This document shows, one piece after another, positions 8,149-41,864 of a DNA stretch of 64,000 nucleotides. The DNA is from Synechococcus sp. WH 7803 (GTDB taxonomy: Bacteria; Cyanobacteriota; Cyanobacteriia; PCC-6307; Cyanobiaceae). Numbering within the stretch: the stretch's first letter is position 1; the number at the start of each line of letters is the position of its first letter. The DNA lies in NCBI GenBank assembly GCA_000063505.1, contig CT971583.1, positions 1,085,918-1,149,917 of the forward strand, written 5' to 3'. Below the pieces are notes generated by a model. It was not told the DNA's origin. It did not search any database and saw only the letters and a program-made list of their open reading frames with translations. The translations under genes and the position numbers were made by a program.

Positions 8149-8892
8149 ATGACTTTCCTTGCTCGTTCCATCTGTCGTGTTCTTCCGGCAGTGTCAGCAA
8201 GTGTCCTGCCCCTCCTCTCTCTCTCTGCTCCTGCCGGGGCCGTTCTACCTCCGGTTGGTAATGATCGTTCCCGCCTGGTGATGCTTCCTGAGGAAGCTGA
8301 GATTTCTGCCCTTCCTTACATCATCACGCCAGAGCGTCGGGCGATGCTCAACACCATCCGTTTTGCGGAAGGAACCTGGAAAGGCGGTTTGGATCTCGGC
8401 TACAGGGTGATGTTCGGTGGAGGATTGATGAGCTCCATGGACCGTCATCCCAACCGAGTGATTTATTCCTCCCGTTACGCCAGTGCAGCAGCGGGTGCGT
8501 ATCAATTCATGCCCTTCACCTGGGATTTGGTGAAGCGCAGCCTCGGCGTGCGTGGATTCGGGCCGGAGGTTCAGGATCAGGGTGCCCTCTTCCTGATTCA
8601 GCGCCGCAAAGCTTTGAGCCTCACTGATACCGGAGTCATGACTCCGCTTCTCGCGGCCAAGCTGGCTCCTGAATGGGCGTCCTTTCCCACTCTGCGCGGA
8701 CGCAGCTACTACGGCCAGCCTGTGAAGCGCTTTACGAATCTGAAGGGCTTCTACAACTTGAACCTGGCGCAGTTGCGCCAGATCCGTGACGCGAAGCGCG
8801 ATGCTTTGGCGGATAAGGCTTCCGAAACTGAGACCGGCATGCCGAAAGCCCCTGTCTGCACAGGCCCCACCATTCTCTGTGGGATGCCCTGA
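8149..8892 (+). CDS. Secreted GH104-like muramidase / endolysin-fold protein
   Basis: A 247-residue protein with an N-terminal signal peptide (hydrophobic VLPLLSLSAPAGA, cleavage near residue 31). From about residue 66 the sequence NTIRFAEGTW places a likely catalytic Glu at 74; AAAGAYQFMPFTW follows, then a helical region ending in AAKLAPEWASFPT. This pattern is that of glycoside hydrolase family 104, the lambda-endolysin-type lytic transglycosylases. Expected role: cleavage of peptidoglycan glycan strands outside the cytoplasm. No holin or other phage gene is nearby, so it reads as a resident wall-turnover enzyme. The 224 bp upstream contain no convincing gene. Confidence 0.75.
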   Translation: MTFLARSICRVLPAVSASVLPLLSLSAPAGAVLPPVGNDRSRLVMLPEEAEISALPYIITPERRAMLNTIRFAEGTWKGGLDLGYRVMFGGGLMSSMDRHPNRVIYSSRYASAAAGAYQFMPFTWDLVKRSLGVRGFGPEVQDQGALFLIQRRKALSLTDTGVMTPLLAAKLAPEWASFPTLRGRSYYGQPVKRFTNLKGFYNLNLAQLRQIRDAKRDALADKASETETGMPKAPVCTGPTILCGMP

Positions 8893-8924
8893 GACCCAAC
8901 CTCAGCGCTCCCACGTGGGATCAC

Positions 8925-9728
8925 TTACTCCTTCGACTCGCTTAAGCGCCGCCCCACGGTCGCTTGCGCAATCAAGTAAGCGCCAACGGCACCCCCGATA
9001 AATCCCATGCCGTTGCGAATCAACGGCAGCAGCTCGCTGGTGCGTGTCACGACAGGAGCGATCCCGAACACCCCAAACAACATGATCCAAAGAGGAGAGA
9101 GGAGTAGCAGCCAGGCCCAGGCCACGCGCTCCCCTTCTTTGCGGGGATAGGCCGCAAAGCCGGCGATCAAGCCTCCGAGCACTGAAGTGCTGAGCGTCCA
9201 GAGCCATTGCTCGGTGGGCAGGCCCGGAACCACCTGGCAACCACCGCGATCGAGACAGATTTCCACCGCATCAATCGCAGCGAGCAGCGCGCCATCCTCG
9301 CCATGGTCACGCACGTAGTACTGATTGCCGTAGCGGGTTTGCAATTCCACCCACCAGGTGCGAGGCATCAGCGCGAAGAACGCATCGCCCACGTTGAAAT
9401 TGAGCAGGTTGCCGCCCCGTGGGTCGCCCACCATCAGCAAGCTGCGCTCATCGAGCCCCCAGAACTCCTTCACGGCCAGACCTGGGGTGCGTTCGTACTG
9501 GGTCAGTACCCTGATCTTCCAGCCACTGCGTTGCTCGAAGGCATCCAACGAGCCTTCAAGCGATTGCAGTTCCTTCGTACTGAACACTCTGGCCAGATCA
9601 ATCACGGGAGTCGGGTGATCTGGAAGCAGTTCGGGGTTGTCGCTGGCTTGAACGGGGGAGGCCAGCAGGAGCAACAGGGGAAGGCTTAGGAGTGCCGCCC
9701 AGCGACAGAGTGTTCGGCGGAAGCCCAT
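8925..9728 (-). CDS. TPM-domain thylakoid protein, Psb32-like
   Basis: A 267-residue protein with a signal peptide (start MGFRRTLCRWAALLS, cleavage near ASPVQA), a TPM domain over about residues 35-165 (PVIDLARVFSTKELQSLEGS, RVLTQYERTP, DPRGGNLLNFNVG) and C-terminal hydrophobic segments. This is the layout of Psb32, which is implicated in photosystem II repair and protection. The start at 9728 places the signal peptide at the N-terminus; a longer in-frame start would bury it. The cytoplasmic side is expected to be only the short C-terminal tail. Function is inferred from family and layout. Confidence 0.8.
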   Translation of the reverse strand: MGFRRTLCRWAALLSLPLLLLLASPVQASDNPELLPDHPTPVIDLARVFSTKELQSLEGSLDAFEQRSGWKIRVLTQYERTPGLAVKEFWGLDERSLLMVGDPRGGNLLNFNVGDAFFALMPRTWWVELQTRYGNQYYVRDHGEDGALLAAIDAVEICLDRGGCQVVPGLPTEQWLWTLSTSVLGGLIAGFAAYPRKEGERVAWAWLLLLSPLWIMLFGVFGIAPVVTRTSELLPLIRNGMGFIGGAVGAYLIAQATVGRRLSESKE

Positions 9729-9763
9729 GATCGTCAACGTCTGCCCGCCATTCTCACCAACTG

Positions 9764-10996
9764 ATGGTCTCGGATGTGTGCTGCCCAGCCTGGTTACTGG
9801 ATCGACTTCGGCAATCCGGAGGAGAGATTCCCTTTTCAATGTTCATGGATTGGGCCCTTCATGACCCTGTCCACGGGGCGTATGGGGCGGGCCATCTGAC
9901 GGTGGGGCCTGATGGTGATTTCGCGACATCGCCATCTCTGGGTGAGGACTTCGCTGATCTGCTTGTGGATCAGCTCGTGGATTGGCTTGGGGACCTCGGG
10001 GAGCGCCACCCCGATGACCGCCTCTCCGTTGTGGATGTTGGCCCAGGTGAAGGCACGCTCACGGCGCAACTCATCCCCCTCCTTCGCCGCAAAGCACCGG
10101 CTTTGGCTGAGCGTCTGGACTGTGTTCTTGTGGAGTGCAATCCAGGAATGGAATCGCGGCAGAAGCAGCGTCTCGGTGCGTCTCCTGCCATTCCCTGCCG
10201 CTGGACGTCCCTCGAAGACCTACGGCGCAATCCCTTGATTGGCGTTGTGGTGGCCCATGAGCTGCTGGATGCGCTCCCCGTTGAGCGTTTGGTGCTCAGG
10301 GCAGGCACTCTGCATCGTCAGATGGTTCGTCTGAGGGTCGAGGGGGCCTCAGCACAGATTCATCTGGCAGAAGGCTCCTTCGAAGGAGAGCTCAGGGCAC
10401 AGTTTCAGGAGGACTGTGCCCGCTCAGGGATGGTGATCCCACCCGCTGGGGCAGAGGATGGCTGGACCACGGAATGGCACGCCTCTGTGTCTCCCTGGAT
10501 GCGGGACGCCGCTGCGGCTGTGCGCCAAGGGGTGCTGTTGGTGGTGGACTATGCCTACGAAGCTGACCGCTATTACACCCGGCATCGCAGCGATGGAACC
10601 TTGCTTGCTTATCGAGAGCAGGTGGCGACCCATGATGTTCTTCGCAATGCCGGCACTCAGGACATCACAGCCCATCTCTGTGTGGAAGCAGTGGTTGAAG
10701 CAGCTGAACGCAATGGCTGGATGCATGAGGGGCAACGCCGCCAAGGAGAAGCTTTGCTTGCCCTCGGTTTGGCCGAACGTTTCACTGCCCTGCAGTCGCT
10801 TCCCGCGGAGCAACTGAGCGAAGCACTGCAGCGCCGAGAAACCCTTTTGCGGTTGGTTGACCCAGCCTGTCTTGGTGATCTGCGTTGGATGGTGTTCCAC
10901 CGGCAGAGCGAACGACGCGAAGATGACCCTTGGACACGCAGCCGTTTGCTCCACGATCCTCCAGCGCTCAGTGCTGGCTCGTCAGACACTGCCTGA
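9764..10996 (+). CDS. MidA/NDUFAF7-type SAM-dependent methyltransferase (DUF185)
   Basis: A 410-residue protein of the MidA/NDUFAF7 family. The early segment [16 protein letters not shown] and [16 protein letters not shown] are signature stretches; [16 protein letters not shown] is the SAM-binding glycine-rich loop, and [15 protein letters not shown] follows. The mitochondrial member methylates an arginine of complex I, and the cyanobacterial substrate is unknown, possibly NDH-1. The gene is divergent from the Psb32-like gene. Its last 29 bp overlap the 3' end of aroB on the other strand. Confidence 0.85.
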
Positions 10997-31097: not shown

Positions 31098-32204
31098 ATG
31101 GCTTACAGCGCATCGATCACTGTGGCGAACTCCAGCAACAGCGCTCGTTCCAGGATCCTGATTTGTGGATACTACGGAGAACACAACCTGGGAGATGACG
31201 CGTTACTCTCTGTTCTCTTGAATCAGCTGCAAGGTCGATGGACCCCAGTGATCACCGCCAGAGACCGGCGGGCTGTGCACTCAATGGCGCCAAGTGTTGA
31301 GACTGTTGACAGGCGATCCCTGATCGCGGTGCTGAAAGAGGTGAGACACGTTGATGCAGTGATTCTTGGTGGTGGAAGCCTGCTGCAAGATTCAACAAGT
31401 ACGCGGAGTTTGATTTATTACGTCCTGCTCATGTGGCGAGCCAAGATTCTTCAGAAACCTGTTTTTTTATGGGCTCAAGGTTTAGGGCCTTTGAAACGAC
31501 GAACCAGCAGGCTTCTCGTTGCACGAACGCTGAAAACGGTCACTTCAGCGTCTTGGAGAGATCCGGCTTCATTGCAACAAGCCGAGAACTGGTCGTTGGA
31601 TATTCCAATGGCGATCGGTCCAGATCCCGTTTGGTCTCACACCGCACCGGATTGGAAATCTGGACATTCGTTGATTTTGTGTTGGAGACCAACACCACTG
31701 TTAAGCAACAAGGGCTGGGAGCAGCTGGTCAATGCTTTGGCTCAATTCAGTGAGAAGCACGATTTCAATGTTGTTTGGCTTGCTTTTCATGGTCAGCAAG
31801 ATGCCGATTTGTTCACGCATCTTTGTGAAGAGGCACTCGTTCCCGAAGAACTAGAGAGGCGATCAACTGTTGTTTGCGCAAATTCAATTGCTCAAGTTCA
31901 GAAGCTCTTCAGTGAATCAACGATGGTGATTGCAATGAGGCTTCATGCCCTTATTTTAGCCGCTGTTGGTGGTGTGCCAACGAGTGCACTAAGTTATGAC
32001 CCAAAAGTGAGTGCTGCAGCTGAGCTCGCAGGACTCACTTGCTGCGAGCTCAGTGATCAGCTTTCAGAACAATTGCTAATTGATCAATGGACTGGAGCGA
32101 TGAAGAGTCCTTTACAGAAGCAACAAATCGACACTTTGGCGATTGATGCAACAATACACAGCAAGAATCTCAACCAACAACTTCAAACGTTGCTTGCTGA
32201 TTGA
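31098..32204 (+). CDS. csaB: Polysaccharide pyruvyl transferase CsaB
   Basis: A 368-residue CsaB-family enzyme. These transfer ketal pyruvate from PEP to cell-surface polysaccharide; in some bacteria the product anchors S-layer proteins. The N-terminal CGYYGEHNLGDDALL and VILGGGSLLQDSTSTRS are family signatures, with MVIAMRLHALILAAVGGVP near the C-terminus. The gene opens an AT-richer stretch of the window. Neither an S-layer protein nor a polysaccharide locus is adjacent; the downstream genes on the other strand concern phosphate and ions. Confidence 0.85.
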   Translation: MAYSASITVANSSNSARSRILICGYYGEHNLGDDALLSVLLNQLQGRWTPVITARDRRAVHSMAPSVETVDRRSLIAVLKEVRHVDAVILGGGSLLQDSTSTRSLIYYVLLMWRAKILQKPVFLWAQGLGPLKRRTSRLLVARTLKTVTSASWRDPASLQQAENWSLDIPMAIGPDPVWSHTAPDWKSGHSLILCWRPTPLLSNKGWEQLVNALAQFSEKHDFNVVWLAFHGQQDADLFTHLCEEALVPEELERRSTVVCANSIAQVQKLFSESTMVIAMRLHALILAAVGGVPTSALSYDPKVSAAAELAGLTCCELSDQLSEQLLIDQWTGAMKSPLQKQQIDTLAIDATIHSKNLNQQLQTLLAD

Positions 32205-32232: not shown

Positions 32233-33252
32233 TCAGCGAAATTGGGGTTTTTTGTGAACATCAAAACTCATTTGCAAGATCTGTCCAATCGTCATGCCAA
32301 CGGGAATATTGCCGCCAAATGATGAGCCGAGAATATGACGGTAAAGCTTGGAATCAACAAGACGATAGGTTGCACTCTGCAAAGGGATATAATTTGACTG
32401 CTTGACAAGCTGTTCAACGTTACGCAGGTAAAACGTGATGAAGTTTCTGAGAGGGGTCTTCTTGCGTAAAGAAAGGTCGTTGATATAGAGGAAGAGAGGT
32501 CTAGAAAGTGGCTGATAGATTTCTTTTTGTACTGCAGTAACGGAGGGAAGGATGGCATTTCCCTTTGGGTTGACGATACGAATTGCTTTTAAGAGTGAAC
32601 GATTATTTTGATAATAGGAAAAACCAAAATAACCAAGCGCATTCACATTCTTAGCAACACAATTTACAATGACGTTATCGTCTTCGCTAGACTTATAGTC
32701 TGTCCTTGAATTGGTTTTGGATTGATTGATGGCCTTATTGAATATATCAAATGTACCCGAATCCTTACCTGGACCGCACAACTTGATGGGTTGTTCGGGA
32801 AAATCAAGATTGACTTGATTCCAAGTCGACACTTTTCCCTGGGACGACTTTGACCACAAGCGTGAGAGTTCTGATGGCGTTAGGGTATTAAGCCAATTGT
32901 TGGACTGATTAGCAACAACAGTGATGGCATCAAAAGCTATGGGTAACTCAATAAAGTTGACCCCATTTTGTTTGCATTGCTTGATTTCCTGTGCACTGAT
33001 CGGTCGCGAGGCATTCGTCAACGGGATTTTGTTGCTACAAAACTCCCTGAATCCTGCAGACGATCCAGTCGATCGGAGTGATATCTTGACGTTCTGACCC
33101 TGCCCCGTTTCGTTGAATTTTTTGATCGCCAGTGAAGTAACGGGATAAACCGTACTGGAACCCGCAATTGAAAGACTCGCTGCTGATGCAGTTGAGATAA
33201 AGGGTGCAATCAACGCGAGTGAAGCCAGGAAAAAAGAACGACTTAATCCCAT
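32233..33252 (-). CDS. sphX: Periplasmic phosphate-binding protein SphX/PstS-like
   Basis: A 339-residue exported phosphate-binding protein. The signal peptide ends near STASAASLS; SIAGSSTVYPVTSLAI and STGSSAGFREFC carry the phosphate-contacting serines, and GKDSGTFDIFN follows. The pattern is that of the PstS/SphX family, with SphX being the separate high-affinity form of cyanobacteria. The ABC parts of the transporter, pstCAB, lie 14-17 kb away in the same window. Upstream are a CATAAT -10 box and a Pho-box-like direct repeat, consistent with induction by phosphate limitation. The gene is AT-rich relative to most of the window. Confidence 0.88.
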   Translation of the reverse strand: MGLSRSFFLASLALIAPFISTASAASLSIAGSSTVYPVTSLAIKKFNETGQGQNVKISLRSTGSSAGFREFCSNKIPLTNASRPISAQEIKQCKQNGVNFIELPIAFDAITVVANQSNNWLNTLTPSELSRLWSKSSQGKVSTWNQVNLDFPEQPIKLCGPGKDSGTFDIFNKAINQSKTNSRTDYKSSEDDNVIVNCVAKNVNALGYFGFSYYQNNRSLLKAIRIVNPKGNAILPSVTAVQKEIYQPLSRPLFLYINDLSLRKKTPLRNFITFYLRNVEQLVKQSNYIPLQSATYRLVDSKLYRHILGSSFGGNIPVGMTIGQILQMSFDVHKKPQFR

Positions 33253-33280: not shown

Positions 33281-33316
33281 ACAGAAAAAACATGTTTGGG
33301 TTAACAAAACATTAGG
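33274..33316 (-). promoter_or_regulatory. sphX promoter with Pho-box-like direct repeat
   Basis: On the minus strand a CATAAT -10 box maps to 33274-33279. Upstream, CCTAATGT (33309-33316) and GTTAACCC (33298-33305) form an 8-3-8 direct repeat that resembles the cyanobacterial Pho box (CTTAACCT-type half sites, 5/8 and 6/8 matches). The second half overlaps the -35 position, as in PhoB-type activated promoters. No good TTGACA is present. The repeat partly overlaps the corA stop codon. Confidence 0.5.
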
Positions 33317-34466
33317 AACTGAATTTCCGGCTTCGCCCGGAAAGATCCTGAAACCATCCACGCTTCCATAGAAAATAGGCCTGAAATAAAGCGATTAGAA
33401 TCATCAATATTAAAGAATATAAGTAACCATACTTCCATTTTAATTCGGGCATATTTTCGAAGTTCATCCCATAAATGCCGGCGATAAACGTTAACGGTGC
33501 GAAGATAGTACTCACAATGGTGAGCGTTTTAATGATCTGGTTCATCACATTTCCAGTGCTGGCCATATACGCATCATTGATACTATTCAGTTGTGTACGT
33601 ATGCTATCGCCTATTTCAAGCAATGTATTCACATGTTCAGCCATGTCATGGAGACCTTCGCGAGCAACTGGACCAAGAAGACGCTGACCTTGCCTGAGAA
33701 GGATGATGAGCTCATTGCGTAGAGGCCAAAGCTGTCGGCGAGCAACTCGGTGATTAAATCTCACTTGATAAGCTCGGTTGAGAATCGAAGGAGAAGGTTT
33801 TAATAAAGCAAGTTCCTCCAAATCATCGAGAAAAACACTCATCGATTCAAGCATTGGCAAATGGCTATCTAAAATATCGTCGACAACAAAATGAAATAGG
33901 TTATCCAAGTCGATCGCTTTGACATTATTGGATTTAGCATTCAACCAAGCTTCAAGGTCACCAAATGAACGTTGCGGATTCTCCTGAATTGTAATAAGCA
34001 TGCGATTGGTAAGTACTAAATTATATTGTGCACTGATTAAGTGGGTTGGATCAGTAGCATGAGAAAACTCATGCAGTACTGCCAATACACTATTGTTCGT
34101 GGAATGAATTCTTGACTTCTGAGGAAAAGTTAGGAGAATTTCAATTACGCTTGGCTCCAATGACAGTAATGACAGGTATTGACGTAACTGATCTATATTG
34201 CCGAGGCCACGGAATTGCAACCACATCAACGATTGGGAATTTAAAATGGTCTGCAATTCATCACATGTTTGCACATGAGAAGTGCGCACTTCTTTCGCAT
34301 CAAACTGAAGAATTTTGCAAGACAATGGCGCTCGACCACCATGCAAAAACAAGTGTGCCGGTAAATCGCCTGGACGATCGTGTAAGGGTAATGGCTCGGG
34401 AATACTGTCGGGGGCTAGGCGATCACCAGATTTAAATAGAGACTGATCGCTTGATGAATCGGACAT
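33312..34466 (-). CDS. corA: CorA-family divalent cation transporter
   Basis: A 384-residue CorA protein, which imports Mg2+ (sometimes Co2+, Ni2+ or Zn2+) as a pentamer. The C-terminal signature is IYGMNF (GMN at about 333-335), followed by a second helix (LYSLILMILIALFQAYFL). The cytoplasmic domain has the usual long helices (LPMLESMSVFLDDLEELALL; SIRTQLNSINDAYMASTGNV). The first 35 residues are Pro/Asp-rich and not typical of CorA. It stands between sphX and the RCK protein gene, all on the minus strand. Confidence 0.92.
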   Translation of the reverse strand: MSDSSSDQSLFKSGDRLAPDSIPEPLPLHDRPGDLPAHLFLHGGRAPLSCKILQFDAKEVRTSHVQTCDELQTILNSQSLMWLQFRGLGNIDQLRQYLSLLSLEPSVIEILLTFPQKSRIHSTNNSVLAVLHEFSHATDPTHLISAQYNLVLTNRMLITIQENPQRSFGDLEAWLNAKSNNVKAIDLDNLFHFVVDDILDSHLPMLESMSVFLDDLEELALLKPSPSILNRAYQVRFNHRVARRQLWPLRNELIILLRQGQRLLGPVAREGLHDMAEHVNTLLEIGDSIRTQLNSINDAYMASTGNVMNQIIKTLTIVSTIFAPLTFIAGIYGMNFENMPELKWKYGYLYSLILMILIALFQAYFLWKRGWFQDLSGRSRKFSS

Positions 34467-34543: not shown

Positions 34544-36415
34544 CTATTGCATACGGGAGACTTCAGCACGAATTGCATATTTTTTTAGCGATTCTTGCAA
34601 TTGCATGGCAATTGAATAGTCAATGCAATCAATCGTATGCTTAGCACCATCCATTAAAGAAAGAAACTCACCTGGTGCTTTGCTAAGTAAACGAGCAAAG
34701 CATTGTTGAATCTCATAGGTATGAAATAATTGATTATGTATAGAAAATGAAATCGCCCAATTTGGGGGCATTAACTCATGACCGTCAATTCTTTGTATTC
34801 CCTCAAGGTCAGAAACAATGAACAGATCATCCCCAGGTTCAATGATTGTGAACCGTGATGGGAATATCTTCAAACTGCTGCGTGGTGACGAACGTCGGCC
34901 GATGACCGTGATTCCATAGCCTTCTTCGAGTCGTGATATGGATAAACCGTTAAGCGTATCGGTTTGCTCAATCGAATATTTAACAATCAGTAAATTTCGT
35001 CCATGAAAGCGAATGACTTGTTCAACGGATTCGCCAAAGGCAGTGGCGATAATCGCGTCAGCTGCAATATCAGTGGTTGAAATAAGAGAGATACCACCTA
35101 ATAACTGACTCATCGAATCAGAGGAGGACAAATGCTTTGTAACGATCGAGAGATTTAACTTGGGATCAATTTTCTGGAGTTCTAAGGCCCAACGTAAATT
35201 ACTGATTAAATCTTTGCAGAGCAAGGCTGCTCCAGTTAGTTTACCTTTTTTTGCCAACTTCATTGCCTTCGCCATTGATAAACCTGTTTCAGACTGAGAA
35301 TCAACACGGAGAACTCCGAAACCCTGCGAACGTAATAATCTAGAGACAATTTGATTGAGTTCCATTCCATCGACTAAGAGCATGGAGTCAACACCTCGTT
35401 TGATGCGTTCATGTCTCCGCAATCCCAAACGTCGACTCAATATTTGGTCTAATATTAGGGCTACAAATAATGATGTTAAAACCGTACCAATAATGGCATA
35501 GATAAGGGTTATGAATAAGACAAATAAGGGGAATTGCATGACTGATTGCTTGCTTTCGTCAATCAAGACATTGACAGGATCAACAAATTCACCTTTTAGG
35601 AGTGCAACGGTCACGAAAACGCCTGTTTGCAGATTTATTTTGTCGAAACTGAATGTCAGTGTTCCCAATACAAGTAAGAAAATCAATAAGAGTACTAGAT
35701 AGTCATAGATTTGCAAGTTTCGCAGACGGTTGCTGATGTTACTCTTTAGTTCTTCTAGTTTGTAAAGCAAGCGATTAATGATTGACTGTAATTCAATTTT
35801 TTGGTGAGACCGTTTGAATCGATAGGGGCGTAGGGATGACTCTGATAAGATGAATTTCTTATGCTTAGGTATTAATTCTTGCTGAAGTCGTAATTCTCGT
35901 TGATGAATTGAGGAGTAATCAAATAGATCTGGATCTGCCTTAGTGAACCGATAGCCATGGCCTTCCATCTGAAAACAGAGATCGTCGTCCGCATTTATAA
36001 GTGATTGTGTTGTTGCATTGGCTGTCAGCAATAATGGATCAACAATCACTAACTTAGGAATTCTGCTTTCAATTAATGAGTTGATATCGCCTTGCTGCTT
36101 AGACGACCGCACGACAATAACAGCGTTAGGATTTAATACACGAGCTTGCAAGGCTGCTTCAAGATTATTTGTTGAATTGGAACTCAGGAAAAGGATGCTT
36201 CGCGCACTGCCAACATCTGCCTGAGAAAGTATGGATGGTTCTCTCATATCACCCAGAACCATCGAATGGCACATCTTATTTTTAAGAGATTTTGATAGCC
36301 ACTTGGGTTCATTTTCATTGATGCACTTAATGCTGATGTTTGTCGGCATCAAGCGCTCAATACATGTCTGCGCTAATGTTCCAACGCCACAGATCAGCAC
36401 CAACGAGCGATTCAT
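34544..36415 (-). CDS. Double-RCK (TrkA-N) membrane protein, ion-channel-like
   Basis: A 623-residue protein with an N-terminal Rossmann-like TrkA-N/RCK domain (LICGVGTLAQTCIERL, LNPNAVIVVRSSKQQGD, about 1-150), a basic linker, two transmembrane helices (about 237-258 and 295-323), a second RCK domain (about 335-490) and a RCK-C-like region. No potassium-filter motif (TVGYG) is visible between the helices, so whether it conducts ions is unclear. It resembles the CASTOR/POLLUX-like group only loosely. It starts 23 bp after ggtA on the same strand, suggesting cotranscription with the glucosylglycerol genes. It is among the most AT-rich genes here. Confidence 0.75.
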   Translation of the reverse strand: MNRSLVLICGVGTLAQTCIERLMPTNISIKCINENEPKWLSKSLKNKMCHSMVLGDMREPSILSQADVGSARSILFLSSNSTNNLEAALQARVLNPNAVIVVRSSKQQGDINSLIESRIPKLVIVDPLLLTANATTQSLINADDDLCFQMEGHGYRFTKADPDLFDYSSIHQRELRLQQELIPKHKKFILSESSLRPYRFKRSHQKIELQSIINRLLYKLEELKSNISNRLRNLQIYDYLVLLLIFLLVLGTLTFSFDKINLQTGVFVTVALLKGEFVDPVNVLIDESKQSVMQFPLFVLFITLIYAIIGTVLTSLFVALILDQILSRRLGLRRHERIKRGVDSMLLVDGMELNQIVSRLLRSQGFGVLRVDSQSETGLSMAKAMKLAKKGKLTGAALLCKDLISNLRWALELQKIDPKLNLSIVTKHLSSSDSMSQLLGGISLISTTDIAADAIIATAFGESVEQVIRFHGRNLLIVKYSIEQTDTLNGLSISRLEEGYGITVIGRRSSPRSSLKIFPSRFTIIEPGDDLFIVSDLEGIQRIDGHELMPPNWAISFSIHNQLFHTYEIQQCFARLLSKAPGEFLSLMDGAKHTIDCIDYSIAMQLQESLKKYAIRAEVSRMQ

Positions 36416-36438
36416 AAAATTCAGAATCTTCTAGAAAT

Positions 36439-37410
36439 TTAGCTTGTACGCAATCCTGTCTTTGCATCGAACCTAAAAACTTTTGATTGTTGCCATGTCA
36501 CAAAGAGTCGTTCTGGACACTGAAATGACGGCTCCGCGACCATCCTTAGGCCGCCTTCGGCGGATTCAAGATAAAGAAGTTGCGTGTTGCCGAGCCATTC
36601 TCGTGAGACAAGCCGACAAGGGAGTCCTGATTCACTGAATTTCAGGTCTTCGGGACGTATGGCTTGGATCTGATGATCACGAGGCTTCAGACAATTGATT
36701 TGAGGTCGACCTAAAAATTGGGCGACAAACAGTGAGTTCGGATTGTTATAGAGATGGATGGGTGTATCCAACTGGACGATTTCTCCGTTGTTAATAATTG
36801 CAATTTTATTTGCCATTGCCAATGCCTCATTTTGATCATGTGTGACATACACAGTTGGCTTTCCTTGATCCAAGATTAGGCGTCGTAATTCAGGTCGAAT
36901 TTGCTCACGTAATTGTGCATCTAAATTACTCATTGGTTCATCAAGCAAATACACCATTGCATTTCTAAGTAGTGCACGGGCAAGTGCAACCCTCTGTCTT
37001 TGACCACCAGACAGAGCTGAGGGCCGGTGATTTGCACGATCTGCCAACTGGACAAGATCAAGAATGTGTTGAATTCTTCGCGATCTTTCCTCGATGCGCA
37101 CACCACGAATTCGCAATCCGAGCTCGAGATTTTCGTAGACAGTTAAATGAGGAAGCAGAGCATAACTCTGAAAAACCATACCCACGGCCCGCTCTGAGGG
37201 AGGTAGGTGTGTGACATCACGATTGCCAAACTTGATAGTGCCCTGCTGGCAACGATCTAAGCCCGCAATCAAACGAAGCGTAGAGCTTTTCCCACAGCCA
37301 CTGGGACCCACCAGAACAAGGCACTCATCCTGTTTGACAGAAAAACTCAAATCATGAACAATCCATTTTGCATTGATTTGCCGTCCAACAGATTGAAGTT
37401 CGAGGGTCAT
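36439..37410 (-). CDS. ggtA: Glucosylglycerol ABC transporter ATPase GgtA
   Basis: A 323-residue ATPase of the MalK/UgpC group. Walker A is GPSGCGKSS, the signature LSGGQRQRVALARALL, Walker B VYLLDEP, and a C-terminal TOBE-like region (IQAIRPEDLKFS) follows. It powers import of leaked glucosylglycerol and of external sucrose or trehalose in the Ggt system. It overlaps ggtD by 4 nt. Assignment to the osmolyte system rests on the linked ggtB, ggtC, ggtD and ggpS genes. Confidence 0.87.
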   Translation of the reverse strand: MTLELQSVGRQINAKWIVHDLSFSVKQDECLVLVGPSGCGKSSTLRLIAGLDRCQQGTIKFGNRDVTHLPPSERAVGMVFQSYALLPHLTVYENLELGLRIRGVRIEERSRRIQHILDLVQLADRANHRPSALSGGQRQRVALARALLRNAMVYLLDEPMSNLDAQLREQIRPELRRLILDQGKPTVYVTHDQNEALAMANKIAIINNGEIVQLDTPIHLYNNPNSLFVAQFLGRPQINCLKPRDHQIQAIRPEDLKFSESGLPCRLVSREWLGNTQLLYLESAEGGLRMVAEPSFQCPERLFVTWQQSKVFRFDAKTGLRTS

Positions 37411-38222
37411 CCTTTTACTGCTCCACTGGTGAGTCCTGAAACAATCGGCTTTTGAAAAACGATCACTAAAAGTATGAGTGGGATCGCGCCAAGTACCGTT
37501 GCGGCAGCGTAGGCACCGTAGGGGACCGAATGAATTGATGAACCAGCAATACGCGCCATTGCAACTGGAAGGGTGAGCTTCGATGTTTCACTGATCCATG
37601 TTAGAGCAATCGGATATTCATTCCATGAGAACAAGAAAACGAGGATTGCTGTGCTAGCAATTGCTGGAGCTAGTAACGGGATATAGATCCAGCGAAAACG
37701 ATTGATTAACGTCAGTCCTTCAACACGCGCTGCATCATCCAGCTCCGGCGGGATGGATGTGAATGCGCTGCCTAATAATAATATCGCAAGCGGTTGTGAC
37801 AAGGCTGTGTACGGCAAAGCCAGAGCAAAAAGATTATTTCCTAAGGAGAGAGCTCTTGCAATTTCCAGTAAGGCGAGAAATAGCAATACATACGGAAAGA
37901 GTGCACAACCAACAAGTATTATGCGGATGAGATTTGACTTTGTTGTTGATAATTTGCTGAGCGAATATGCAGCTGGAAGTGCGATAATCAGCGTGAGTAG
38001 TGTGGCAAGGATGCCAACAAACAAGCTGTTAATCAGATACAGAAAAAATGGAGGATTGGCTGAGATCACACTGCGATAGTGTTCCAGCGTCCAACGGTTT
38101 GCCATTGTCTCAAATGGAGTGACTAAGGCTTGATCTGTTGAAAATGATGTATAAAGTTGCCAAAGGAGCGGTGCCAATGACCATGCAAGAAGGAGAATAA
38201 TCGAAGCTGATTTAAGTTTCAT
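37407..38222 (-). CDS. ggtD: Glucosylglycerol transporter permease GgtD
   Basis: A 271-residue MalG-type permease with six membrane segments and the EAA loop DDAARVEGLTLINRFRWIY followed by IPLLAP. The start MKLKSASIILLLAW places its ATG in the ATGA overlap with the ggtC stop (38219-38222); the longer in-frame ORF to 38270 overlaps ggtC too far. It pairs with GgtC. Length and topology are normal. It lies in the middle of a five-gene operon in which every junction overlaps by 4 nt. Confidence 0.85.
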   Translation of the reverse strand: MKLKSASIILLLAWSLAPLLWQLYTSFSTDQALVTPFETMANRWTLEHYRSVISANPPFFLYLINSLFVGILATLLTLIIALPAAYSLSKLSTTKSNLIRIILVGCALFPYVLLFLALLEIARALSLGNNLFALALPYTALSQPLAILLLGSAFTSIPPELDDAARVEGLTLINRFRWIYIPLLAPAIASTAILVFLFSWNEYPIALTWISETSKLTLPVAMARIAGSSIHSVPYGAYAAATVLGAIPLILLVIVFQKPIVSGLTSGAVKG

Positions 38223-39091
38223 TCTGTCACTGCCATTGATCCGCGTTGATTCAAGAGAATCATTAACCACCAGCCAAAAGCCACGATTGTGCTCAACAGA
38301 ACAAAGCTGGCAATCATGATGGTAGCGCTATATCCAAAGTCGAGGAATCGCAGAGCATTCCAATAGGCATAGAGCGCAAGGCTTTCAGTGCTGCTGGCTG
38401 GTCCTCCTCCTGTCATCACTTGTACGAGGTCAAACACACCAAAAGCCTGTGCCAGCCTGAATGTCATCGCGAGCCCCAGATAGGGTTTCAATAATGGCAA
38501 TGTAATCTTGCGAAAGCAAGTGAACGATGAAGCTCCTTCGAGAGTACAAGCTTCATAAAGATCGTTTGGAATGCTTTGTAGTCCTGCAAGCAAAATCAGA
38601 GCAACGAATGGCGTTGTTTTCCAAACATCGGCGTACACTAATGCAATCCATGCAAAGGATGGATTCCCCAGTATGTTCAGCGATATTCCTGATAGAGATG
38701 TGAATTGATCGATAGGTCCGTATGGCGTATTGAAGATCCATCGCCAACCAAGTGCCATTACGGTTGTTGGTAATGCCCATGGGATTAATGCTGCCGAGCG
38801 AATCAGTCCCCTTTTTCTCATTGGTTGGTGAAGAAGTAGTGCAATCGCTAGGCCCAGGAGAAGCTCGAAGCCAACGGACGCAAATGCAAAGCGGAGTGTT
38901 TGTATGAGGTCTTGCCAATAGCGTTGATCATGCATGAGTCGCAACCAATTGGCTCCATCATTTGCGATTGGCTGGAGCCCCGTTAACACTGAATCCGCAT
39001 GAAAACTCAGCCATGCGTATCGGAGTAAGGGCAGTCCAAAGACACTTGCTAATAAAAGAAATGCAGGAATCAGTAGATAGACAACAGTCAT
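38219..39091 (-). CDS. ggtC: Glucosylglycerol transporter permease GgtC
   Basis: A 290-residue MalF-type permease with six predicted helices. The EAA loop reads DLYEACTLEGASSFTCFRKI then TLPLLKP, with a Cys where many members have Ala. The start MTVVYLLIPAFLLLASVFGL gives a direct membrane start without a long periplasmic loop. It forms the membrane channel together with GgtD and contacts GgtA. Junctions with ggtB and ggtD are ATGA overlaps. Confidence 0.85.
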   Translation of the reverse strand: MTVVYLLIPAFLLLASVFGLPLLRYAWLSFHADSVLTGLQPIANDGANWLRLMHDQRYWQDLIQTLRFAFASVGFELLLGLAIALLLHQPMRKRGLIRSAALIPWALPTTVMALGWRWIFNTPYGPIDQFTSLSGISLNILGNPSFAWIALVYADVWKTTPFVALILLAGLQSIPNDLYEACTLEGASSFTCFRKITLPLLKPYLGLAMTFRLAQAFGVFDLVQVMTGGGPASSTESLALYAYWNALRFLDFGYSATIMIASFVLLSTIVAFGWWLMILLNQRGSMAVTE

Positions 39092-40377
39092 TTCATCAGT
39101 CCTCCTGCCGCAAGCATGATTTGTTCTGAGGTACTTGTTGCATTCTTCATCGATATTTTTGCAGTCAATTCCTGTGTAAGAGATTCACTAAGGTTGCGCT
39201 GAAGGACGTCACTAAGTTGGGCATAGACTGGCGTCTCAGGTCGCATTCTGCCAACCTTAAGAGCCTTATAGAGTTCAATAATGTAGGGATATTTTTCGAG
39301 CATTATTGGATCTTCGTAGATAGATTTTAGCGTTGGTGTATATCCATACTCTTCAAACATTTTCAATTGCGACTCTTTCGACGTTAAAAATTTGAAAGCC
39401 TCGATCACTGCTTCTTTGTGTTTAGATCCTTTGAGCAAACTAAAACCCCAACTCCCGACTGTTGATGCGGGTGAAGCTCCTGGAGCTGCGACCATTGTCG
39501 ATATTCCAACCTTTCCTCGTACGCGACTGTCTTCTTTTTGAAGTTCGGCCCATGCATAGGGCCAGTTGCGCATGAATGCACTATCACCGGACTTGAAGCT
39601 CTGCAAGGTTTCAGATTCAGCATAGTTGGTTACTGCTTCTGGGCTGATGCCCTCTTGAATCAAATCAGTAAGCCATTGTGCTGCATTCACCCCTGGTTTT
39701 TGATCCAAACCAAAAGTTCCACGATCTGGATTAAACCAATTACCGCCAAAACCATCAATCATTTCGAGATAGACACAACTTAATCCTTCATATTGGCGTC
39801 CCTGCCATACGTATCCCCAGGGTACTTTTTTGTTGTTTTGAAGATTGCGACTCACAGCCACCAACTCATCTGGTGTTGATGGTGGTTTCTCCATGAGATC
39901 TGTTCGCCAGAACAACAGGCCAATATCAGCGACCAAAGGCCATCGGTATAAAACACCTTGATAGTTATTCCCTAGCTGGGCACCATTGGTTAAATCGTTG
40001 ATGTCTGATTCGTCAAATCCGTTGTCCAGTGCTTCAAGCCACCCTGCTCGCGCATACTTCGGTAGCCACGTGATATCCATCAACAGGGCGTCAAAGGGGG
40101 TGTCTCCTAACAACAAGCTACTGATTGCCAGATCGGATATTGCTTCTGTTTCAAGGGGACCACGAATGACGTCGAGGTGAATTGACTTCTCATACTTTTG
40201 ATTAAAATCCTTCACCAGATCTCTTGTCGAGTCAGCAAAAGGAGCAGGCATCAAAATTGTGACGGGTTCAATTTCCTGAGCAGTCAATGTCGGAATCAAG
40301 ACAAGGGAAAGAACGAGTGACAACCCGATTGTCAGCCCGACCGATAGTTTCTTGCGCCAACGAAACATCAGCTTCAA
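39088..40377 (-). CDS. ggtB: Glucosylglycerol-binding protein GgtB
   Basis: A 429-residue extracytoplasmic solute-binding protein of family 1. The signal peptide is basic then hydrophobic (KKLSVGLTIGLSLVLSLVLI), with cleavage near LTAQE. The mature part has the usual SBP_bac segments (LGDTPFDALLMDITWLPKYA, GVLYRWPLVADIGLLFWRTD, FMRNWPYAWAEL). There is no lipobox cysteine. Members of this group bind sugars or glucosylglycerol; the osmolyte assignment follows from the operon. It overlaps ggpS by 4 nt. Confidence 0.87.
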   Translation of the reverse strand: MKLMFRWRKKLSVGLTIGLSLVLSLVLIPTLTAQEIEPVTILMPAPFADSTRDLVKDFNQKYEKSIHLDVIRGPLETEAISDLAISSLLLGDTPFDALLMDITWLPKYARAGWLEALDNGFDESDINDLTNGAQLGNNYQGVLYRWPLVADIGLLFWRTDLMEKPPSTPDELVAVSRNLQNNKKVPWGYVWQGRQYEGLSCVYLEMIDGFGGNWFNPDRGTFGLDQKPGVNAAQWLTDLIQEGISPEAVTNYAESETLQSFKSGDSAFMRNWPYAWAELQKEDSRVRGKVGISTMVAAPGASPASTVGSWGFSLLKGSKHKEAVIEAFKFLTSKESQLKMFEEYGYTPTLKSIYEDPIMLEKYPYIIELYKALKVGRMRPETPVYAQLSDVLQRNLSESLTQELTAKISMKNATSTSEQIMLAAGGLMK

Positions 40378-41864
40378 TCCACGGTTTCTAGTGACTGCAT
40401 TTGTTCATTAGCCCAGTCTGTAACCGTAAACTCGTCAACCGCATCAACCATTTTTTTCATTCTGGAGACTTGTTCTTCTTGCGGTAAAGCCAATGCAGTT
40501 TCAATTGCATCATCCATTTGTTTATGTGAGTATGGATTTGTTAAAAGAGCTCCATCAAGCACAACTGAAGCCCCTGTAAATTCTGACAAAACAAGAACCC
40601 CGTCTCTGCCTTTACGTGCAGCCACATATTCCTTGGCCACGAGATTGAGACCATCCCTTAAGGGTGTAATCCAGCAAATATCCGACTTTGAAAACCACGC
40701 AATCATTTCCTCATAGGGGATACGGTTGGTTGAAAAGCGAATTGGCACCCAATCAATCAAACTGAACCGTCCATTGATACGCCCTGCCGTTTCTTCAATC
40801 AGTCGTTGAGTTTCTTCATAGATTTTCATCCCTGAAGCAGCTGCAACGCAAGCCAACATCAAAACTACCTTTCCATGCAGATCCGGCCGCCTCTCCAGTA
40901 ATCGCTCGAATGCGAGTAGAAGTTCTTCATTCCCCTTTGTGTAGTCGACGCGGCTTGCTGAGAGAATGAGCTTTCGCCCCTTTTTTGTGTCTTCATCAAT
41001 TTTCTTGCTTAACTCAGCAACATCGTTGCGTACGGCGAGGGTCTGAATCACGTCTGGTGAGGTACCGACAGGTGAAGAGACGAGTTTAACTTTACGATTC
41101 TTGTATTTAAGCCATGGTGTTTCAGTTGGTTCAGTTAAAGCAGAACCAAATTTTAGGAATTTCGTTGCAACACTCTCTTTCGGCCCTTTTTCAACGCCAA
41201 GCAGACAGCTTGCAGCACGGGCAAAATTTTCTGTGTAGCGCGGTATGTGGAATCCAACCACATCGCAAGCTAATAAACTCTCGATGATTTGTTTTCTCCA
41301 CGGCAGTATGGCAAAGACGTCATTGCCTGGAAATGGCGTGTGATGAAAAAATGCTATTTTTAAATCAGGACGTTTCTCACGGATAAAACCTGAAACGAGC
41401 CATAAGTTGTAGTCGTGAATCCAAACTGTGGCACCTTCTGCTGCTTCAGCGCAGGCAGCATTAGCAAATCGTTGATTAACCTCTTCAAATATTTGCCAAT
41501 TTGCATTGTTTACATCAAAATATGTTGGAAATGTATGAAGAATTGGCCAAAATGATTCTTTTGATGTTACGTGGTAAAAACTTGAAATTTGTTCTTGCTC
41601 AAGCGGGATCCTCCTCAACGAAAAAGTTGCGGGATTGTTCATTACAATCCTTTCGTCGCGTTCGTTTTTTACATCATCAACTCGACGCCATGCAATCCAT
41701 GTGCCATTCTCTCTACTGCGAAATAAGTTTCTTAGGGTTGGTATGATGCCATTGGGGCTTTTTTGGTCTCTCCAAATTCGATTTCCGAGTTCGTCGGTTG
41801 ACTCATCAAATGGAGTTCGATGATAGAGAATGATAAAGTCACTTTTGCCTTCATTTATCAGCAT
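40374..41864 (-). CDS. ggpS: Glucosylglycerol-phosphate synthase GgpS
   Basis: A 496-residue GT20-family enzyme related to trehalose-6-phosphate synthase. It makes glucosylglycerol-3-phosphate from ADP-glucose and glycerol-3-phosphate, the main compatible solute of many marine cyanobacteria. Recognisable segments are TVWIHDYNLWLV, FFHHTPFPGNDVFAILPWRK, LSASRVDYTKGNEELLLAFE and TPLRDGLNLVAKEYVAAR. The phosphatase gene (stpA/ggpP) is not in the window. It heads the operon ggpS-ggtB-ggtC-ggtD-ggtA, and a CATAATGG motif with an upstream TTGACA lies in front of it. Confidence 0.93.
   Translation of the reverse strand: MLINEGKSDFIILYHRTPFDESTDELGNRIWRDQKSPNGIIPTLRNLFRSRENGTWIAWRRVDDVKNERDERIVMNNPATFSLRRIPLEQEQISSFYHVTSKESFWPILHTFPTYFDVNNANWQIFEEVNQRFANAACAEAAEGATVWIHDYNLWLVSGFIREKRPDLKIAFFHHTPFPGNDVFAILPWRKQIIESLLACDVVGFHIPRYTENFARAASCLLGVEKGPKESVATKFLKFGSALTEPTETPWLKYKNRKVKLVSSPVGTSPDVIQTLAVRNDVAELSKKIDEDTKKGRKLILSASRVDYTKGNEELLLAFERLLERRPDLHGKVVLMLACVAAASGMKIYEETQRLIEETAGRINGRFSLIDWVPIRFSTNRIPYEEMIAWFSKSDICWITPLRDGLNLVAKEYVAARKGRDGVLVLSEFTGASVVLDGALLTNPYSHKQMDDAIETALALPQEEQVSRMKKMVDAVDEFTVTDWANEQMQSLETVD

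Follow-up and report, generated by a model that had tools for sequence, protein, structure and literature searches.

A candidate RCK-gated pore-loop channel with a replaced filter behind the glucosylglycerol genes of Synechococcus sp. WH 7803

What does a membrane protein with an RCK domain at either end do directly behind the genes of an osmolyte operon? The question is raised by a 623-residue gene (the RCK gene) that begins 23 bp past ggtA, on the same strand as the glucosylglycerol operon ggpS-ggtBCDA, in a stretch of 64,000 nucleotides from Synechococcus sp. WH 7803 (GenBank assembly GCA_000063505.1, contig CT971583.1, positions 1,085,918 to 1,149,917; the window), part of a single-contig genome of 2.37 Mb. 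An initial annotation made from the letters alone gave this length, strand, and spacing, which the open reading frame (ORF) coordinates bear out, and took the protein for a possible new kind of membrane sensor. We find instead a derived member of a class-wide cyanobacterial family with the order RCK, two transmembrane (TM) helices, RCK (RCK-2TM-RCK). We infer that four copies of it make up a cation channel of the pore-loop type that is gated by the RCK domains, conduction included, and put the probability of this reading at roughly 0.6. The sensor proposal gives way because relatives in other families carry a K+-type, GGYGD-like loop at the equivalent position and the modeled pore resembles those of NaK, GsuK, SthK, and MthK.

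Domain order and predicted structure

The gene and its parts, in the order of translation, are as follows.

34544..36415, minus strand: RCK-2TM-RCK channel-like gene, 623 amino acids (ORF, RCK domain matches, model, and homologues)
35837..36415, minus strand: RCK1 (residues 1-193), the N-terminal domain of the gating ring, carrying a CGxGxLxQ motif (TrkA_N match and model)
35648..35821, minus strand: linker and first membrane helix (TM1), residues 199-256 (AlphaFold2 models)
35597..35632, minus strand: pore helix, residues 262-273 (AlphaFold2 models)
35579..35593, minus strand: filter loop G275-E276-F277-V278-D279, aligning with G-G-Y-G-D of relatives
35426..35527, minus strand: second membrane helix (TM2), residues 297-330 (AlphaFold2 models)
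34553..35389, minus strand: RCK2 and RCK-C region, residues 343-621, without GxGxxG (model; Foldseek matches to TrkA and GsuK)

Against Pfam, the window protein matches TrkA_N at residues 6-107 (E = 3e-12) and, under the curated cut-off, TrkA_C at residues 488-543 (E = 0.011). Both families are matched (E ≤ 1) in 53 of the 53 members of alignment A2, which comprises 52 of 55 picocyanobacterial loci plus the window (left out were L178, which has a cut start, L164, and L171, which has unresolved bases). These 55 loci were found with an alignment as query; a single-protein query of the named genomes' contigs had returned no relative. The AlphaFold2 monomer model of the full protein (mean predicted local distance difference test [pLDDT], 87.4; predicted template modeling score [pTM], 0.81) runs from RCK1 through TM1, the pore helix, the filter loop, a short helix (278-288), and TM2 to RCK2. 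It places RCK at both ends of a two-helix membrane part, as the initial annotation had proposed; RCK1 being N-terminal, the RCK domains do not lie after the pore only. Neither Pfam nor the model shows an attached output domain.

Foldseek matched the whole model to TrkA, GsuK, MthK, and Slo proteins. Among gating rings the highest VIA-align score is that of GsuK (Z = 21.8, root mean square deviation [rmsd] 3.2, 247 residues aligned), followed by TrkA (Z = 20.9, rmsd 5.7, 385 aligned), MtDMI1 (Z = 20.6, rmsd 10.4, 335 aligned), and LjCASTOR (Z = 20.0, rmsd 11.4, 335 aligned); the KtrA and Slo rings are likewise matched. The pore stretch modeled alone (pLDDT 76.9, pTM 0.48) shows the same TM1-pore helix-loop-TM2 layout as the full model. 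Its top 50 Foldseek rows are all pore-loop cation channels, 48 under NaK or sodium-potassium channel titles and two (6dz1) K+ channels; the best E is 0.09, and no row reaches 0.001. By VIA-align this stretch is matched to NaK (Z = 10.8, rmsd 6.8, 102 aligned), GsuK (Z = 9.9, rmsd 2.5, 93 aligned), SthK (Z = 9.8), and MthK (Z = 9.2).

Replacement of the filter loop

The TxGYG filter is absent from the window protein, as had been noticed at the outset, and the equivalent stretch reads KGEFVD (residues 274-279). This is no peculiarity of one genome: G-[ED]-[YF]-[VIL]-D fills the filter columns in 53 of 53 A2 rows, with E-[YF]-[VIL] at the GYG position in 52 of them and D-Y-V in one. Another alignment, A1 (41 of the 55 fetched genes plus the window), gives G-[ED]-[YFL]-[VILA]-D in 42 of 42 rows, a few having L or A at one position. 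T269, L273, G275, D279, and G310 are invariant in A2, and E276 is present in 52 of 53 rows. Between the window gene and that of G246 in the same genus, the nonsynonymous rate (dN) is 0.16 and the synonymous rate (dS) about 2, which is saturated, giving a dN/dS of ~0.08. Given the invariant L273, G275, and D279, the near-invariant E276, and this low ratio, the altered loop appears to be under selection.

Homologues from other cyanobacterial families have a different loop at the same columns. Among 20 of them (19 in alignment A3, the loop of the twentieth, L204, being read separately), 19 carry G-G-[YF]-x-[DN], and 11 have GGYGD or GGFGD; the sole exception to GG[YF] is GSYDI (L206). None of the 53 picocyanobacterial rows has GG[YF]. 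Judged from these residues, the GG[YF] loop is a K+-type filter in which the usual Thr-Val has been replaced. Since it occupies the same columns in the other families, the missing K+ filter of the window protein is, on this alignment, a derived replacement within an old channel family. The Pfam family Ion_trans_2 is matched by 7 of 19 other-family pore stretches (best E = 2.2e-4), and the picocyanobacterial and other-family pore profiles match each other with a probability of 97.5 (E = 5e-12). The two RCK domains have fared differently in A3: CGxGxLxQ of RCK1 occurs in all 9 picocyanobacterial rows and in 17 of the 19 from other families, and GxGxxG of RCK2 in none of the 9 and in 15 of the 19.

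A working channel of this kind would most likely be built as follows. Four TM1-P-TM2 units would form a pore, with a ring of eight RCK domains (four RCK1, N-terminal, and four RCK2, C-terminal) beneath it; binding of a nucleotide or ion to RCK1 would shift the ring and open the pore, as modeled on GsuK. With the GxGxxG of RCK2 decayed, the ligand would more probably bind at RCK1. Most other members of this old RCK-2TM-RCK family have a K+-like GG[YF] loop, which is GGYGD in many; the picocyanobacterial members have replaced it by G-[E/D]-[Y/F]-x-D, and with it K+ selectivity has probably been lost or changed. With an acidic loop, the channel is unlikely to be strictly K+ selective and could instead pass Na+, mixed cations, or divalents.

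Distribution of the family

A profile search of the phylum (386 genomes) matched 101. Homologues at E ≤ 1e-30 occur in 56 genomes of 19 other cyanobacterial families, most of them full-length; the remaining matches outside the family, along with all three outside the class, are mostly RCK-only. The homology of the window protein to the RCK-2TM-RCK family is full-length, through RCK1, pore, and RCK2. In the tree, which was made by a quick method and in which several long branches were flagged, the picocyanobacterial clade is set apart from the other-family sequences with a support of 100, on a branch whose length is 1.44 changes per column. The domain order, which the initial annotation called unusual, is so when set against the solved GsuK and CASTOR, where the TM part precedes the RCK domains, but it is common to the homologues in the 19 other families.

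In the literature, of which preprints and most subscription journals were outside our coverage, no family described as having this domain order came to light, and the accessible parts of three papers (PMC7771541, PMC2874817, PMC2853561) do not mention such a gene. No relative was found in viral contigs, nor any match in plasmids with one other-family homologue as query. Around 20 other-family homologues no neighboring gene family recurs in at least three loci (blastp E 1e-10, over half length), so the context there gives no hint of function; ggp genes and corA were not detected within 8-9.5 kb of the same 20 with single-sequence queries.

Within the window's own family, the gene was matched in 66 of 300 genomes, and we count 63 carriers after dropping three with short, weak, RCK-only matches (G010, G094, G166). 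Of the 300 genomes, 197 reach a completeness of 90%, so that gaps may account for some absences. The neighborhood of the gene was read in 56 of the 63 carriers, counting the window (all but G074, G087, G103, G125, G144, G251, and G293; the ggp contig of G103, L113, has no RCK match listed). ORF picks in high-GC picocyanobacterial DNA are contaminated by antisense frames and were used only for naming some neighbors. The homology, domain order, filter swap, synteny, and losses reported here were computed.

Association with corA

Two genes lie on the far side of the RCK gene in the window.

33312..34466, minus strand: corA (TIGR00383 above cut-off)
32233-33252: PstS-family phosphate-binding protein, beside corA (family match)

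Among seven window genes checked, corA is the one most often found near the RCK gene in the family. A close corA orthologue is present in 57 of 63 RCK carriers versus 45 of 237 noncarriers (P = 3e-26, uncorrected for kinship); only close orthologues enter these counts (102 of 108 genomes with a match), and two of the six genomes set aside are RCK carriers. Within 2.5 kb and on the same strand, corA occurs in 25 of the 56 RCK loci read. The data suggest that corA is the closest genomic partner of the RCK gene, with phylogeny as a confounder.

Three arrangements are seen across picocyanobacterial genera: RCK then corA; RCK, an ORF of ~2 kb, then corA; and corA then RCK. By eye, from its translation rather than from a family search, the ~2-kb ORF looks pyruvate-kinase-like.

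This partnership, together with the conserved acidic loop, could mean that the protein is a channel for divalent or mixed cations that serves Mg2+ (or Ca2+) homeostasis together with CorA. Its loop would then select divalents, loosely in the manner proposed for the filter Asp of CASTOR, a Ca2+ channel by the accessible text of PMC6697748. We nevertheless hold this unlikely, because the co-occurrence is uncorrected for genome size as well as kinship and corA was detected at none of the 20 other-family loci read, with a single picocyanobacterial CorA as query. Within the genus of the window, corA is present in five of five carriers versus 1 of 19 others, and the joint loss may partly be one deletion.

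Association with the glucosylglycerol operon

The operon upstream of the RCK gene is laid out as follows.

40374..41864, minus strand: ggpS, glucosylglycerol-phosphate synthase (TIGR02398, 792 bits, cut-off 569)
39088..40377, minus strand: ggtB, solute-binding protein, with a TTG start
38219..39091, minus strand: ggtC, ATP-binding cassette (ABC) permease (ORF and family matches)
37407..38270, minus strand: ggtD, ABC permease, first possible start 38270, ATG start 38222 (37407-38222 counted from the ATG)
36439..37410, minus strand: ggtA, ABC ATPase (ORF and family matches)
36416..36438, minus strand: 23-bp spacer, ggtA stop to RCK-gene ATG

Reading of the junctions confirms the four-nucleotide overlaps reported for the whole of ggpS-ggtB-ggtC-ggtD-ggtA (TTGA, ATGA, ATGA, ATGA); that between ggpS and ggtB holds only with the TTG start of ggtB. 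The RCK gene lies directly behind ggtA in seven genomes: the window, G246, G181, G193, G260, G054, and G112, the last with a broken gene. In the six intact loci the gaps are 23, 24, 24, 24, 24, and 4 bp, where 24 bp is that of four genomes of the window's genus and 4 bp that of G054, from another genus. Chance adjacency in the window alone is rejected by the short gap in all six. Going by this short, conserved gap, the RCK gene is most likely co-transcribed with ggpS-ggtBCDA in the window's lineage, which could bring salt-dependent expression. None of the terminator-like sites listed for the window falls within the 23-bp gap, the scan as a whole not exceeding shuffles (8 sites vs. 7.5 expected); the promoter scan is uninformative (12 sites vs. 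13.5 expected from shuffles).

Across the 300 genomes the two do not go together as a rule. ggpS (counted as absent if unmatched at E ≤ 1e-100) is found in 108, and both genes in 17: ggpS is present in 17 of 63 RCK carriers versus 91 of 237 noncarriers (odds ratio 0.59, P = 0.11), leaving 91 ggpS genomes without the RCK gene. Generic GgtA-like ABC ATPases (28%-47% identity, several kb off) were not counted as ggtA. Of the carriers, 46 lack a ggpS match and 10 have ggpS at another site; in the remaining seven, the broken copy among them, the two are adjacent. The gene thus lies apart from ggtA in 56 of 63 carriers, an outcome that the initial annotation had itself named as counting against its proposal, and an ion sensor built into the osmolyte system is not supported as the general role of the protein. 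In G051 (L048) the order is htpG-prxQ-RCK, the RCK gene following prxQ without an intervening ggp operon, and Cyanobium sp. Morenito 9A2 (L143) has the same layout without the operon; the operon has therefore been inserted or cleanly lost there. On the tree, the ggtA-adjacent copies need two changes, the G054 copy not being firmly grouped with the other five; a single origin of the adjacency may also be compatible with it.

Within the window's genus ggpS is present in 24 of 24 genomes and the RCK gene is kept in five. In 15 of the 18 genomes without it whose surroundings were read (18 of 19, G283 being left out; in L095 ggtA runs off the contig), the next window gene past ggtA is the convergent one at 31098-32204. 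Both pstS and corA were also not found behind ggtA in these 15. G231 retains pstS alone behind ggtA. G204 (L087, ~8248-8678) keeps corA and pstS, and of the RCK gene only eroded 5′ and 3′ ends remain in the space from ggtA to corA. With G246 DNA as query, blastn gives a match of 76.8% over 194 nt (E = 6e-38) that takes in part of the intergenic sequence, and tblastn finds the gene ends at E = 5e-6 and 5e-4. In the one-contig genome G112 (L067, ~8245-10104) the gene behind ggtA is split over three frames; this copy is in none of A1, A2, and the tree. G112 has a corA match elsewhere in its genome. From the remnants in same-genus relatives it follows that the RCK gene lay behind ggtA in an ancestor of at least part of the window's genus and was then lost.

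The osmolyte-operon link is thus most likely a lineage-specific arrangement rather than the general role of the family, and the wider genomic pattern suggests that the job of the channel is independent of glucosylglycerol. An osmolyte-coupled ion-exit valve, releasing the ions of salt shock as glucosylglycerol accumulates, would suit the short distance from ggtA to the RCK gene, seen in the window, four more genomes of its genus, and G054, with no terminator-like site listed in the window's gap. The many carriers without ggpS or with ggpS elsewhere, the ggpS genomes that lack the RCK gene, and the prxQ-linked gene of G051 make it improbable. Any salt-response story for the RCK gene is inferential only. 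Tentatively, and as something we would not bet on as a whole, the channel reading can be extended: the picocyanobacterial change from GGYGD to GE[YF]VD may have made a ligand-gated Na+, mixed, or divalent channel of permuted order, which one marine lineage wired into the glucosylglycerol operon, co-expressing ion release and osmolyte build-up.

Does the pore conduct?

Several observations weigh against a conducting channel. Both GYG filter glycines are gone from the window protein, and the pore may not conduct. The matches of the pore fold are weak one by one and helical, and helical bundles reach such scores; the pore-alone model is modest, and both it and the full model are monomers. Ion_trans_2 is not matched by the window protein (Pfam, E ≤ 1), and the four whole-protein matches listed for this family are all under the curated cut-off. 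The other-family pore profile gives no significant match to solved structures (best E = 0.62); of its 13 structure rows, 12 belong to K+ channels or to a "transporter" entry that is channel-like, and one to a hydrogenlyase. Finally, the decay in G204 and the broken copy in G112 indicate that the gene is dispensable in relatives.

The loss of the filter could instead have left a non-conducting membrane sensor, in which conformational change of the RCK domains reports ion or nucleotide state. GYG is indeed replaced in all 53 rows, the window protein has no known channel filter, and the RCK fold is kept in the model. Yet the replacement is itself conserved at T269, L273, G275, D279, G310, and, but for one row, E276, where a dead pore should drift, and no output domain is attached; we regard such a sensor as quite improbable. 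A soluble regulator like TrkA or KtrA is rejected by the two long hydrophobic helices of the model.

Should the channel conduct, the family would be a natural selectivity experiment, in which the same columns hold a K+-like GGYGD in many cyanobacteria and a fixed acidic E/D loop in picocyanobacteria, and the protein a candidate ion route in picocyanobacteria. Its permuted gating ring, with RCK on both sides of the pore, offers a comparison for GsuK, MthK, BK, and CASTOR.

Comparison with known systems

MthK and Slo/BK are RCK-gated pore-loop channels that the window protein matches in structure; their filter, unlike its own, is of the TVGYG type, and none of their RCK domains precedes the pore. 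GsuK of Geobacter sulfurreducens is described in the accessible text of PMC3510474 as a two-TM, dual-RCK, nucleotide-activated K+ channel, activated by ADP and NAD+ and inhibited by Ca2+. As far as that text goes, GsuK shares with the window protein two TM helices and two RCK domains per subunit; it differs in being a K+ channel, where the window loop is KGEFVD, and in that both of its RCK domains follow the TM part, one behind the other, where RCK1 of the window protein precedes the pore.

Of the CASTOR, POLLUX, and DMI1 channels, the RCK rings of MtDMI1 and LjCASTOR score Z ~20 against the window protein at an rmsd >10, and other RCK rings share such scores. That the window protein is a CASTOR homologue is rejected, the Pfam model of CASTOR not being among the five families matched at E ≤ 1. 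This model we take to be PF06241, for CASTOR/POLLUX/DMI1. In the part of PMC6697748 available, CASTOR is reported as a Ca2+ channel whose filter mutant D265N gives no current. By the same partial source, these proteins lack TVGYG and have an acidic residue in the filter, as does the window protein, and differ from it in four predicted TM helices before both RCK domains and a filter AD-S/A-GNHA.

Two cyanobacterial proteins may be related. Sll0536 of Synechocystis PCC 6803, a fifth K+ channel homologue with no functional information according to the accessible text of PMC13099474, may possibly belong to the same RCK-2TM-RCK family, as a lead only. The putative potassium transporter CK_00002470, a Cyanorak cluster commoner in freshwater strains and listed in the available part of PMC9361551 for 43 of 67 freshwater, 7 of 17 brackish, and 8 of 48 marine strains, may resemble the RCK gene in its pattern of occurrence. 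Our own carrier records are mostly Cyanobium, Synechococcus, and Vulcanococcus. Many of these named records are presumably from freshwater.

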